Shown here: piece after piece, positions 2,483 through 39,693 of the stretch
How the letters are laid out: every line of letters begins with the position of its first letter
How positions within the stretch are numbered: the first letter of the stretch is position 1
Source of the DNA: an uncultured Pseudomonadota bacterium
GTDB lineage: Bacteria > Bdellovibrionota_B > Oligoflexia > Oligoflexales > CAIMVM01
Direction: 5' to 3'
Assembly (NCBI GenBank): GCA_903844895.1
Contig: CAIMVM010000198.1
Coordinates: forward strand, 1 to 53,973
DNA length: 53,973 bases
Position numbers and translations under genes: made by a program
Notes under the pieces: model-generated
The model's input: only the letters and a program-made list of their open reading frames with translations
The model's database searches: none
Told to the model about the DNA's origin: nothing

Positions 2483-2995
2483 ATGACTACCAAAAAGACA
2501 ATTGAATTTTCTTCTCTTGTAGTTGAAATTTCGACATTTGAAGACAAGTCAAAATACACTTTTAAAGGGGCCCTTGATGACAAAATTAGGGAGCACGACA
2601 TTCCTCGCGCCCAAAACAAAGATGTAATTTTTGACCTGAGCCAGATTCAAAGAATTTCCTCAACGGGTATTAGGGAATGGATTAAAATAGTTTCTGCCTT
2701 TAAAAATACAAAATCGCTCATTTTTGAAAAATGCTCAGTAATTATGGTCGACCAGTTTAATATGGTACCTGAGACTATAGGCACTGCCCAGATTGAGTCT
2801 TTTTATGCCCCATACTTTCATGAGGCAACAGGGAAAGAAATCATTTGTCTTATCAAAGTAGACTTTCACGGCCCTTTTTTGGCTAAGAGAGAAGCGCCCC
2901 CTATGGTCAACGAAGCGACGGGCGATGCGCTTGAATTTGATGCACTGGAAGACAGCTATTTTTCATTTCTAAAACATGCCAATCGAGGAAGCTGA
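2483..2995 (+). CDS. STAS-domain protein (paralogue lacking the zinc ribbon)
   Basis: 170-residue protein with an anti-sigma-factor-antagonist-like STAS domain. The beta-strand/turn VIFDLSQIQRISSTGIREW (48-66) is the characteristic region, with Ser60 at the place of the usual phosphorylatable serine. It is clearly paralogous to the protein at 34086-34568: matching segments are STGIREW/SCGVRAW, QFNMVP/QVNMIP and the acidic tail before a final SFLK/GFLQ. The two CxxC pairs of that paralogue are absent here. The ATG at 2483 is preferred over a TTG at 2429 that would overlap the upstream stop. It ends 5 bases before cheA, so it is probably translated and regulated with the chemotaxis kinase. Partner and output are unknown. 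Confidence 0.75.
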   Translation: MTTKKTIEFSSLVVEISTFEDKSKYTFKGALDDKIREHDIPRAQNKDVIFDLSQIQRISSTGIREWIKIVSAFKNTKSLIFEKCSVIMVDQFNMVPETIGTAQIESFYAPYFHEATGKEIICLIKVDFHGPFLAKREAPPMVNEATGDALEFDALEDSYFSFLKHANRGS

Positions 2996-3000
2996 ATCTC

Positions 3001-5646
3001 ATGGACAAAGACTCACAAATGAAGCTTATTGAACTAATTAAAACGGAAATGCCGGAGCTGCACAAGGCTCTAAAAAACTTGGTTAAGTCCGGTTCCTATG
3101 AAGATTTGCCAGCAGAGCTTATTGAAAATATTTCGGCCTTCCATAAACCCTACTGCGATTTTGTTGCTTGGATGCTTGACAAAAATAGAAATGAAGATGG
3201 ATTTACTTTAAAGATTAAAGACGCCCAATCCCAACTAGATTCGCAACTTAGTAGTGGTTTGTTGTCTAATCAAGTGAATATAGAGAGCTCTCATACCGAT
3301 GAAATTTCATCAAACGACTCAGATTTTGACCTAATGGAAGGTGAAGGCAGCTTTGCCAGTGAAGATCCGCTCAAAAGTGTTGACGAGTTGGTAGAGGCTA
3401 TGGAAGTTGAATCCATTGAAAACGCACCTTCAGGTGAAATCGACGATGACGAAGCTATGCGCCTTCTCGCTTCGATGGATGAGCCATTAGTGGAAGAGAA
3501 AAGTCAGGAAATCGATGACGATGAAGCAGCCAGGCTTTTGGCAGACATGGATGCGCCTGTGTCCGCCAACTCTGAAATTGACGACGACGAAGCGATGAGG
3601 CTTCTCAATGAAATGGATTCACCAAGCCAGCCCGAAGCTAATGCGACCAAGGTTTTGGCTGAATCTTTAAAAAGCAAAAAAGACTTCTCCCAAACTAATG
3701 CTGACGAAGAAGCTCTAGAGCTCCTGTCCGCGTTGGGGGGTGATGAAAGCAATTTAGGCGCTGAGTCAAAAAGAACGCCAGTAAATGTATCAATTCCCGT
3801 TGTTTCCCCCAAGGAAACGCGAAAAGAGTCCGCTGAACATGAAGAACATGAAGAAGAAATTGAAGAATTTAGTGGTTCTGAATTCGCAAGTGATCCCGAA
3901 ATGATGAACGACTTTCTGTCGAATGCTGATGATTTAATGGAAAATCTTGATACACAAATTCTTGCTCTTGAACAAAATCCTACAAGTAAAAACGTGATTG
4001 AAGAAATATTTAGAGCCGCTCATACCTTAAAGGGCGCTGCAGGAATGTTTGGATTTAAAGCTCTCGAAAGAGTTATGCACCGTCTAGAGAACTATTTTGA
4101 CTTAGTTCGCAAGGGTAAATCCGTTGCAAATCCCGATACTATCGACGTCGTATTTCAAGCCATGGATGTGATGAGAAAGCTTTTAGATGGGGTAAGAAAT
4201 AATCGTCCTTCCGGGGTTCTAACAAGTCAACTAATCACCAAGCTAAACAAGGTATGTGCGGGGACATACACGCGTGATGCAAGTATTCCTGAAGTCCAAA
4301 ATGGTGAAAATTCTGGGCAGAAAAAAGAAAGTCGCACTGAGCATAAAGCAGAGTTGCCAACTGGAGGCGCCGAACCAGCAGCGAAACAACAAGAAAGTTC
4401 TACAATAAAGGTAGATATTGAGAGACTTGATGCTTTGGTGAACTTGGTGGGTGAGCTTGTAATTGACCGTGGTAGATTTGTTAATATCGAAGAGGATATA
4501 CGGGTAAAGACCAAAGAGCATGGCATAACAGCGAAAATGTCAGAAACGGTGCAATTATTCGGGCGTCACATGAATGAAATACAAGACATCATCATGAAAG
4601 TACGAATGGTTCCTATTGGAAACACGTTCAACAAATTTACTAGAATAGTTAGAGATATTTCGCGTCAGCTTGGTAAAGAAATTGAATTGACGATAATTGG
4701 AGAGGAAACTGAACTTGATAAGACACTCGTCGAACAACTAGGTGATCCTTTGGTCCATTTGATTCGAAATGCTTGTGATCATGGTTGTGAAACTCAAGCT
4801 GAACGACAAAAAAATGGAAAGCAAGGGAAGGCCTCCATAGAACTTTCTGCAAGGCAAGAAGGCAATCAAATTATAATTTCCATTACGGATGATGGAAAAG
4901 GCATGGACAGCGCGCGAATAAAAGCTAAAGCCGTCGAAAAAGGGATTATAAAAGAAGACGCCAATCTGTCACCTAAGGAATGCCTAAATCTTATCTTTGA
5001 AGCAGGATTCTCTACTGTAGAAAATGTAACCAATCTCTCTGGAAGAGGCGTCGGGATGGATGTCGTAAAACGACAGATCTCTAAGCTAAAGGGCAATATC
5101 GATATTCAAAGTGCAGTTGGAAAAGGAAGTACGATTACCATAAATCTTCCATTAACACTTGCTATCGTCCAAAGTCTTTTAGTAAAAAGTGAGTCTGACG
5201 TCTTTGCGATACCTTTGAGTACAGTAGTCGAATCTATTCGTATTCACCCCAGTGAAATTCAGCATATCGGCAACTCAGAGGTTATCAAACGCCGTGATTC
5301 CATATTGCCTCTTGTCTACCTTAACAAAGTTTTGGACCTAGATCATAAAGATAAAAAGATCTGGTATAAGTTCAATCCAATTGAGAACAATCTGGAACGC
5401 AACAAGCGTCACAAAAGATTATTTGTAGTGGTTATTGGAACTGGCGACAAGAAATTTGGAATTGTCGTTGACCACCTCTTAAATCAGCAAGAAATGGTAA
5501 TCAAGCCCATGGGGGCTCTTTTAAGACAGATTCCTTGCGTCGCCGGCGGGGCTATCTTGGGCAATGGTGAGGCAGTTCTGGTACTAGACATGGCTGAGGT
5601 TGAGTCTTTTGTGAGACAGCAAGGTCGTCAAAACATAGCAGCATAG
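3001..5646 (+). CDS. cheA: Chemotaxis histidine kinase CheA with an N-terminal acidic repeat extension
   Basis: Cytoplasmic autokinase that signals from chemoreceptor arrays, 881 residues against about 650-700 for typical CheA. Order: a novel N-terminal part (1-290) with near-identical repeats EIDDDEAMRLLASMD (146-160), EIDDDEAARLLADMD (170-184), EIDDDEAMRLLNEMD (192-206) and a weaker fourth copy (about 233-246); then an Hpt domain with phospho-acceptor His341 in HTLKGAAGMFG; a short linker (about 400-466) with no room for a normal P2 response-regulator-binding domain; dimerisation domain (about 467-530); ATPase with N box HLIRNACDHG (586-595) and DDGKGMD (630-636); and a CheW-like coupling domain (about 720-870). 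The ATG at 3001 has GAGGA at 2985-2989. It is flanked by STAS and cheW genes in one operon. Confidence 0.95.
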   Translation: MDKDSQMKLIELIKTEMPELHKALKNLVKSGSYEDLPAELIENISAFHKPYCDFVAWMLDKNRNEDGFTLKIKDAQSQLDSQLSSGLLSNQVNIESSHTDEISSNDSDFDLMEGEGSFASEDPLKSVDELVEAMEVESIENAPSGEIDDDEAMRLLASMDEPLVEEKSQEIDDDEAARLLADMDAPVSANSEIDDDEAMRLLNEMDSPSQPEANATKVLAESLKSKKDFSQTNADEEALELLSALGGDESNLGAESKRTPVNVSIPVVSPKETRKESAEHEEHEEEIEEFSGSEFASDPEMMNDFLSNADDLMENLDTQILALEQNPTSKNVIEEIFRAAHTLKGAAGMFGFKALERVMHRLENYFDLVRKGKSVANPDTIDVVFQAMDVMRKLLDGVRNNRPSGVLTSQLITKLNKVCAGTYTRDASIPEVQNGENSGQKKESRTEHKAELPTGGAEPAAKQQESSTIKVDIERLDALVNLVGELVIDRGRFVNIEEDIRVKTKEHGITAKMSETVQLFGRHMNEIQDIIMKVRMVPIGNTFNKFTRIVRDISRQLGKEIELTIIGEETELDKTLVEQLGDPLVHLIRNACDHGCETQAERQKNGKQGKASIELSARQEGNQIIISITDDGKGMDSARIKAKAVEKGIIKEDANLSPKECLNLIFEAGFSTVENVTNLSGRGVGMDVVKRQISKLKGNIDIQSAVGKGSTITINLPLTLAIVQSLLVKSESDVFAIPLSTVVESIRIHPSEIQHIGNSEVIKRRDSILPLVYLNKVLDLDHKDKKIWYKFNPIENNLERNKRHKRLFVVVIGTGDKKFGIVVDHLLNQQEMVIKPMGALLRQIPCVAGGAILGNGEAVLVLDMAEVESFVRQQGRQNIAA
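3436..3738 (+). repeat. Degenerate in-frame repeats encoding an acidic helical motif in CheA
   Basis: Three near-identical 15-codon units at 3436-3480, 3508-3552 and 3574-3618, and a diverged fourth at about 3697-3738. Each encodes a run of aspartates followed by EAxRLLxxMD. The copies differ at many synonymous positions, which suggests the peptide rather than the DNA is under selection. Role unknown; a docking helix for a partner protein is an inference. Confidence 0.85.
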
Positions 5647-5656
5647 GAGATCTAAC

Positions 5657-6220
5657 ATGGAATATTTGGCGAATTCAATGACGGAAGAGTTAGGGTTTTT
5701 CTCTCCTAGAGGAAGTTTAGATGGTGAGCTCGAGGGTGACTTTACAGAAAAAGAAAGGTTTATTGGGTTTAAGATAACAGATGAAATCTTCTATCTTCCA
5801 ATTTCCAATGTCTCTGAAATTATTATGCTGGTACCCATAACTTATGTACCCAGAAGTATGGAATTCATTGAAGGAATTATCAATGTTCGCGGAACTATAA
5901 TTCCTACCATAAATTTGCGCAAGATGATGGGATATAGTCGAACGGAAGCAAGCATGTCATCAAGAATCATAATCGTGAAAACAGAAAAAGCTTATGCCGG
6001 CTTGCTTGTCGATGGAATCACAGTGGTAGCATCATTTTCACCATCGGAAATCGAAATTCAAGCCCTACCCACAAAAAATCCAAATATCGATATTATCACT
6101 CGTGTAACCAAAGTTGAGGGCAAAATAAGCGGGATTCTGGACAGCTCTAAAATACTAGATTGTGCCAGCTATGAAAGAAACAAAAACGCCTCAGAGATTT
6201 CTGAAAAAGCTGCTTCCTGA
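5657..6220 (+). CDS. cheW: Chemotaxis coupling protein CheW
   Basis: Adaptor that links CheA to chemoreceptors, 187 residues. A nonconserved acidic leader of about 30 residues precedes a complete CheW fold: RFIGFKITDEIFYLPISNVSE, then PRSMEFIEGIINVRGTIIP with the GIINVRG signature, VKTEKAYAGLLVDGI and a final KISGILDSSKIL. The AGGAGA Shine-Dalgarno at 5645-5650 overlaps the end of cheA and sits 6 bases before the ATG, so the two genes are translationally linked. It is the last gene of the operon. A single-domain CheW is the simplest reading; a CheV is excluded because there is no receiver domain. Confidence 0.93.
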   Translation: MEYLANSMTEELGFFSPRGSLDGELEGDFTEKERFIGFKITDEIFYLPISNVSEIIMLVPITYVPRSMEFIEGIINVRGTIIPTINLRKMMGYSRTEASMSSRIIIVKTEKAYAGLLVDGITVVASFSPSEIEIQALPTKNPNIDIITRVTKVEGKISGILDSSKILDCASYERNKNASEISEKAAS

Positions 6221-34028: not shown

Positions 34029-34085
34029 CAAAATAGGGCCTAAGTTGACCCTAGGTTGAAAACAAGAATCTCGAGAAGGTGTACT

Positions 34086-34568
34086 ATGGATTTTAGCTAT
34101 CGAGTCGAAAAGAAAGACGGTTGGGATTGCGTTTATATTTCAGGCAAGATTAACGAAGATTCTGAGTCTCAACTCATCGATATGGGTCAACATTTGGAGA
34201 AAAAGGTTATTATAAACTTTTCAGGAATTAAGATGGTTAATTCTTGCGGGGTAAGAGCGTGGATTTCGTTTATTCGAGAGGCTCAAAAATCTAGAGAAAT
34301 ACAATTTGAAGAATGTACGCCTGAAATCGTAAGTCAGGTCAATATGATTCCAAATTTTCTTGGTTCTGCGAAGATTAAAAGTGTCTATGCTGAATATGGT
34401 TGTGAGCATTGTGGGCATTCGGCTTGGCGGATTTTTGAACGGGGAAAAGATCTTCCTGAAAATAGCGGCTCGATTTCGGTTTCAGATTTCAATTGCGAGA
34501 AATGTGGACAAAAAATGGAGATGGAAGAAATCGAAGATGAATTTTTTGGATTTCTTCAAGCTGGCTAA
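34086..34568 (+). CDS. STAS-domain protein with a C-terminal zinc ribbon
   Basis: 160 residues. The STAS core is VIINFSGIKMVNSCGVRAW (41-59) with Ser53 at the usual phosphorylation site. The tail carries two CxxC pairs, C106-C109 (GCEHCGH) and C137-C140 (NCEKCGQ), likely a zinc ribbon, then the acidic MEMEEIEDEFFGF. It is paralogous to the STAS protein before cheA (2483-2995), which has lost these cysteines. The ATG at 34086 has AAGG upstream and is preferred to a TTG at 34056. It is 32 bases before a diguanylate cyclase gene and is transcribed from a predicted sigma-28 promoter. A role in partner switching or in regulating the cyclase is plausible. Confidence 0.78.
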   Translation: MDFSYRVEKKDGWDCVYISGKINEDSESQLIDMGQHLEKKVIINFSGIKMVNSCGVRAWISFIREAQKSREIQFEECTPEIVSQVNMIPNFLGSAKIKSVYAEYGCEHCGHSAWRIFERGKDLPENSGSISVSDFNCEKCGQKMEMEEIEDEFFGFLQAG

Positions 34569-39153: not shown

Positions 39154-39693
39154 TTAAAGTGAGGATTTAAAGAGATCCCACTTCACATGGCTCAGTTCCG
39201 CCCAAGTTGTGTCGGCCCTTAAAACCGCATATTGAGCAGGCGCAAAACTGATTTCGGTCTGAACAAGATGGCTTGCAAAAATGGAAATCCCAGGATTATG
39301 ACCCACGAGAATGATCCCTTGCTGGGCTTCATCGACGTGAATGGAAACGTCAAGCCAATCTTCCATCTCGCCACGATAGAGATGATTTTCTTTGTCAATT
39401 TTACCGTCAGTTTTACCGTCAGTTTTACCGTCAGTTTTACCGTCAGTTTCACCGTCAAAGAACCTTTGCCTTTGAAACTCTTTAAGAATGTAGCTGCATG
39501 TCTGTAGGGTGCGCGTGGCCGGGCTAGATATGATAAGCGGTGGCTTGAGTGTGTTAGATCGCCATATCTCGATGAGGTTAAGAGCGGTATGATGGGCTTC
39601 AGCATGCCCAACATCTGTCAAGCAGCGCTCAAAATCTAACTTTATAAGATTGCTTTCTGCCGTGGCATGTCTCACTAAGACTAAATACTTCAT
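39154..39693 (-). CDS. SixA-like phosphohistidine phosphatase with a tandem-repeat insertion
   Basis: 179 residues against about 160 for SixA. Histidine-phosphatase signature LVRHATAES at the N-terminus, then a second conserved histidine in ILVGHNPGISIF. SixA proteins remove phosphate from histidines of phosphotransfer proteins. Between the two halves lies an acidic repeat of D-G-K-T units (ETDGKTDGKTDGKTDGKID, about 80-99) encoded by a 12-base tandem repeat. The insert is at a surface loop position, so the fold should survive. The ATG at 39693 has AAAGG 7 bases upstream. Confidence 0.85.
   Translation of the reverse strand: MKYLVLVRHATAESNLIKLDFERCLTDVGHAEAHHTALNLIEIWRSNTLKPPLIISSPATRTLQTCSYILKEFQRQRFFDGETDGKTDGKTDGKTDGKIDKENHLYRGEMEDWLDVSIHVDEAQQGIILVGHNPGISIFASHLVQTEISFAPAQYAVLRADTTWAELSHVKWDLFKSSL
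39397..39456. repeat. 12-base tandem repeat, five copies, in the SixA-like gene
   Basis: Unit AGTTTTACCGTC on the plus strand, at 39397-39408, 39409-39420, 39421-39432, 39433-39444 and 39445-39456. The outer copies carry single changes; the inner three are identical. Being a multiple of three, copy changes stay in frame. Confidence 0.9.

Follow-up and report, generated by a model that had tools for sequence, protein, structure and literature searches.

The window analysed here is a stretch of 53,973 nucleotides from an uncultured bacterium of the order Oligoflexales, and it carries a cheA gene between a STAS-like gene and cheW (Table 1). The encoded protein is a CheA histidine kinase, with an Hpt domain containing the phospho-acceptor histidine (His341, within the motif HTLKG) and with the P3 dimerisation (residues 466-534), P4 ATPase (583-719), and P5 CheW (725-867) domains recognised by Pfam. 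The Hpt domain was modelled with confidence and matched the CheA P1 crystal structure 1i5n. From the N-terminus onward, the protein consisted of an N-terminal helical region, an array of repeated motifs, Hpt, a linker, P3, P4, and P5; the canonical five-domain layout, in which P2 lies between P1 and P3, was not seen. The stretch N-terminal of Hpt spanned about 298 residues, in agreement with the 290-residue extension described in an earlier sequence-only reading of this DNA, the Pfam Hpt match starting at residue 300.

Table 1. Features of the cheA locus in the window
Feature	Position	Strand	Residues	Basis
STAS-like gene, directly upstream of cheA	2483..2995	+		ORF from 2429, ATG at 2483 inferred; Pfam STAS E=0.075 (weak)
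cheA	3001..5646	+	881 aa	ORF, Pfam, structure models
N-terminal helical region	3001..3261	+	1-87	Modelled helices 3-30, 38-66, 72-87
Docking-like unit 1, EIDDDEAMRLLASMD	3436..3480	+	146-160	Modelled helix 149-160
Docking-like unit 2, EIDDDEAARLLADMD	3508..3552	+	170-184	Modelled helix 173-184
Docking-like unit 3, EIDDDEAMRLLNEMD	3574..3618	+	192-206	Modelled helix 195-206
Degenerate unit 4, TNADEEALELLSAL	3694..3735	+	232-245	Modelled helix 234-245
Hpt (P1)	3898..4197	+	300-399	Pfam E=1.8e-18
Hpt-P3 linker, usual place of P2	4198..4395	+	400-465	Pfam, models
Kinase core P3-P4-P5	4396..5601	+	466-867	Pfam
cheW, directly downstream of cheA	5657..6220	+		Pfam E=5.3e-30

The N-terminal helical region (residues 1-87) was kept in the CheA orthologs of Oligoflexales, and no Hpt or PDB relative was found for it. 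Residues 1-88 were also considered as a degenerate Hpt domain, which was rejected because they resembled neither the Hpt domains of the sister order nor the protein's own Hpt, while the control was strongly positive. Relatives of the STAS-like protein carried a C-terminal cysteine pair and an FDALEESYF segment and were weakly recognised by Pfam. Elsewhere in the window, the gene at 34056-34568 resembled the STAS-like gene by eye, sharing the G[IV]R.W and NM[VI]P segments; its product kept CxxC pairs, which the copy upstream of cheA lacks although its relatives have them. The ORF at 39154-39693, judged by eye to be probably histidine-phosphatase-like, contained an insert of tandem TDGK repeats.

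Tandem units N-terminal of the Hpt domain

Units 1-3 were near-identical, with the consensus EIDDDEAxRLLxxMD, and unit 4 was weaker, which confirms the three near-perfect copies and weaker fourth one reported by the sequence-only reading. On the family profile, units 1-3 scored 37-40 and unit 4 scored 14.9, compared with 7.3 for the best of 30,862 background 14-mers, and on a BLOSUM-smoothed profile units 1 and 4 outscored all 33,434 background 14-mers; since the units themselves went into the profile, these scores show membership of one family and are not independent proof. At several residues that they have in common, units 1 and 2 were encoded by distinct synonymous codons, and no DNA-level repeat family was reported, which together imply that their likeness is kept at the protein level, as had been proposed before. 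Chance and DNA-level repeat expansion were ruled out as origins of the units by the profile scores, the codons, and the lack of a DNA repeat family.

In the AlphaFold model made with 15 sequences, every unit formed a short helix on its own amid disorder. The mean confidence was roughly 50-80 in the unit-bearing blocks and below 50 in the segments between them, and the full-length model agreed with that of the 15 sequences, the units lying in a low-confidence chain; these models are single-chain, have modest overall confidence, and carry no information on partners. Isolated short helices within disordered sequence are as expected of a docking array, and it is very likely that the array is one.

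Absence of a P2 domain

Neither PF07194 nor PF09078 matched the CheA of the window, even at E<=1, and in the AlphaFold models its sole Hpt-P3 gap, 66 residues long, was largely disordered beyond the final helix of Hpt. A P2 domain hidden in the N-terminal part was ruled out by Pfam, the PDB sequence search, and the structure model. The window's genome contained seven CheA genes, located on contigs C155, C163, C198, C247 (two), C299, and C340. Pfam detected P2 in none of these seven proteins, and the PF07194 search across 58 genomes of the class gave 0 matches, with a tool that showed P2 in control CheAs but misses some P2 domains (L209).

The earlier claim that P2 is missing was therefore borne out by the Pfam results and the structure models. 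About 52% of CheAs are without P2 (PMC10782961), so that its loss is in itself ordinary and is no finding. Moreover, P2 of E. coli CheA is dispensable (PMC10782961), so that no substitute for it need exist.

Distribution of the array

When the first 295 residues of the protein served as the query, 17 of 56 genomes, including the window's own, proved to contain relatives, and the named relatives were Oligoflexales, Oligoflexus, and Pseudobacteriovorax metagenome assemblies. In the orthologous Oligoflexales CheAs, a regular expression for [ML]SDDEAxRLLAEMDxP matched two to six units per genome and, once one spurious match had been removed, 65 in total over 19 genomes; looser copies exist beyond the pattern. 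The search for the motif in other CheA proteins, suggested by the sequence-only reading, thus found it in Oligoflexales orthologs in variable copy number; its presence beside a normal P2 domain, which that reading had named as counter-evidence, was seen in none of the CheAs read. The motif-bearing orthologs spanned several families of the order, and in several relatives the last unit was a weaker one akin to unit 4 (for example SADDEAMALL, SADEEAEALL, and SAEEEALALL). Likeness among units was higher within a genome (63%) than across genomes (53%), which is as expected if the copies turn over by duplication.

Across 43 genomes of the order, confident matches to the motif were confined to CheA, and no other protein of the order and no plasmid carried it with confidence; an extra match at E<0.01 (G024:C70) was the N-terminal piece of a CheA split by a contig end. 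In the window's own genome, the CheA described here was the only protein with the motif. No relevant earlier account of units of this kind turned up in the literature searched. The gene order STAS-CheA-CheW was kept in nearly all readable Oligoflexales loci.

The array was absent from the ortholog in genome G006 (L073, CheA at 3969-5891), which retained the N-terminal region, Hpt, and the core. This genome represents a natural deletion of the array, with the STAS, CheW, and ParA-like neighbours kept and with FliM and CheY encoded in the genome. The array was also absent from the sister-order CheA orthologs. The sister-order proteins (L066, L068-L072, L074-L080) mostly had two Hpt domains with a domain of about 100 residues between them; the reading of this alpha/beta domain as a P2 domain was not supported, with p=0.11 in the profile comparison against 0.0004 and 0.0029 in the P2-to-P2 controls.

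Resemblance to FliM and CheY as candidate partner

The N-terminal CheY-binding peptide of FliM carries an "EIDALL" motif (PMC9126983), and the FliM peptide of the window's genome is VLSQSEVDALLSAV. On the BLOSUM-smoothed unit profile, this peptide ranked among the top 8 of 33,434 background 14-mers (top 0.024%), on the log-odds profile 40 of 30,862 background 14-mers scored as well, and the shuffle test gave p=0.0026; as FliM was picked for comparison after the motif had been seen, these ranks are supportive and do not amount to a blind test. The likeness was restricted to the expected register, the neighbouring registers scoring far lower. Among E. coli peptides, the CheZ C-terminus ranked in the top 0.22% and FliM in the top 1.3%. 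The predicted unit helices partly recall the FliM and CheZ peptides, which are likewise short and follow an [ST]xxE.xxLLxx[hydrophobic]-like pattern without a shift of register. Those peptides occur in single copy at a protein end, and the array is more acidic than they are and ends in M-D-x-P. Position 7 was Ala in all units, compared with Val or Ile in FliM and CheZ, a uniformity that is partly by construction, the pattern having allowed only A or D, although the alignments agree. Ala at this position, an expected CheY contact, implies that the affinity could be low or that the partner could be different.

A canonical CheY, closely similar to its E. coli counterpart, adjoined fliA in the window's genome, and the FliM-face residues (N94, I95, Y106, K109, and K119 in E. 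coli numbering) showed little or no variation among 24 CheYs of the order. CheY was present in 19 of the 21 genomes with the CheA ortholog and in 7 of the 22 without it (Fisher p=1.2e-4, phylogeny ignored), and this association was weaker when only flagellated genomes were compared (p=0.015, phylogeny ignored). Flagellin was encoded in all 21 genomes with the ortholog. Genome G009 had the array and eight flagellin genes, with no FliM or CheY found; it was rejected as a counter-example because, given the flagellin genes, the most likely cause is that a linked cluster fell into a gap of the assembly. No match to CheZ over the cut-off was found in the order. The array-less ortholog of G006 coexisted with FliM and the same CheY, which indicates that the array is not essential.

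A similar array in Aeromonas caviae

The CheA of the gammaproteobacterium Aeromonas caviae (L208) also had no Pfam P2 and contained three units, EISADEFERLLDEL, DITDDEFEALLDQL, and LIDDDEFERLLDEL, whose 14-mers start at positions 176, 209, and 247 of the open frame. Each of them outscored every background 14-mer on the Oligoflexales unit profile. This linker array, of the ITDDEFEALLDQLHG type, resembles that of Oligoflexales in that its three units follow one another in a P2-less CheA and share the register, and differs in lying between Hpt and P3, in having Phe at position 7, and in ending in LHGxG. The remaining control CheAs, taken from beyond the order and mostly equipped with a P2 or P2-like domain, contained no such tandem units, and the literature searched gave no function for the A. 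caviae array. The sequence of this one genome suggests convergence and does not indicate a common origin. A wider reading, in which P2-less CheAs of distant phyla independently exchanged P2 for tandem FliM-like docking helices, so that multivalent and tunable capture of CheY would mimic the motor site, is unlikely.

Possible function of the array

The order-wide conservation of FliM-like repeats in a P2-less CheA suggests that these repeats probably serve to capture CheY, or else some other protein, beside the phosphate-transfer domain. CheY is the best single guess as the partner, and we tentatively favour an array that docks CheY and does the job of P2. The extension would be an acidic and flexible stretch of docking peptides in tandem, in which each EIDDDEAxRLLxxMD unit would become a short amphipathic helix on binding, like the N-terminal peptide of FliM, and would capture CheY at its alpha4-beta5-alpha5 face. 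A number of such sites, each of them weak and placed immediately before Hpt, would increase the local CheY concentration around phospho-His341 and in this way perform the task of the missing domain. We infer CheY as the partner, the reversibility of its binding, and the faster phosphotransfer. Like P2 (PF07194, PF09078), the array would keep CheY close to P1 through a flexible stretch of chain. The two differ in form and place: P2 has an alpha/beta fold and sits between P1 and P3, whereas the units are short helical motifs that precede P1. The sequence-only reading had proposed that the repeats replace P2 as docking helices; the modelled helices, the conservation, and the FliM-like register make such a P2-like role plausible.

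The array may instead dock a different partner, one that gives the chemosensory array its place in the cell as a polar or scaffold tether. Vibrio provides a precedent for this, as an extra segment in the CheA linker ahead of P3 binds ParP there and serves polar localisation; this segment, the LID, docks the CheW-like ParP, whose anchor is the ParA-like ParC (PMC5706961, PMC7534058). Compared by description and not by sequence, the LID is similarly a protein-interaction segment added to a flexible part of CheA, but its place is between P2 and P3, and it is confined to systems with ParP/ParC (PMC7534058). A ParA-like gene directly followed cheW in G018, G022, G026, and G006, yet only 3 array-bearing loci had it as a neighbour, the array-less G006 had it too, and no ParP-like protein was identified; we consider a tether unlikely. 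For the neighbouring STAS protein, another partner named by the sequence-only reading, which the array would bind to sequester or recruit the kinase, the evidence is mixed. The gene order STAS-CheA-CheW is conserved throughout the order, and no STAS gene was recognised beside the sister-order CheA, which lacks the array, but G006 keeps the STAS gene beside an array-less CheA, and the N-terminal helical region, which G006 retains, fits an association with STAS better than the array does. Binding of STAS by the array is judged quite improbable.

P2 domains of CheA can dock more than one regulator, as in E. coli, which favours the view that the array binds another receiver domain or pathway protein, such as CheB or another single-domain regulator, and not the motor CheY. 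The 40 strong receiver-domain matches in the window's genome, several of them on single-domain proteins, point the same way, but the FliM-like register points to a motor-type CheY and nothing singles out another regulator, which leaves this the least probable of the alternatives. The units could also act inside CheA, for instance restraining the kinase by docking on P4 or P5 of the dimer, or could be a spacer of little function, as the varying copy number and the loss of the array in one ortholog would allow. The strong conservation of the units amid free spacer sequence across families opposes a neutral spacer, and the full-length model leaves the units in a low-confidence chain; an internal or spacer role is considered very doubtful.

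If CheY docking by the array is true, the kinase and the flagellar switch would contend, through related peptides, for one and the same CheY face. Conserved motor-like docking peptides on the kinase would then be a direct answer, for one order, to how P2-less CheAs find their regulators, and the array motif would provide a search pattern for other orders.
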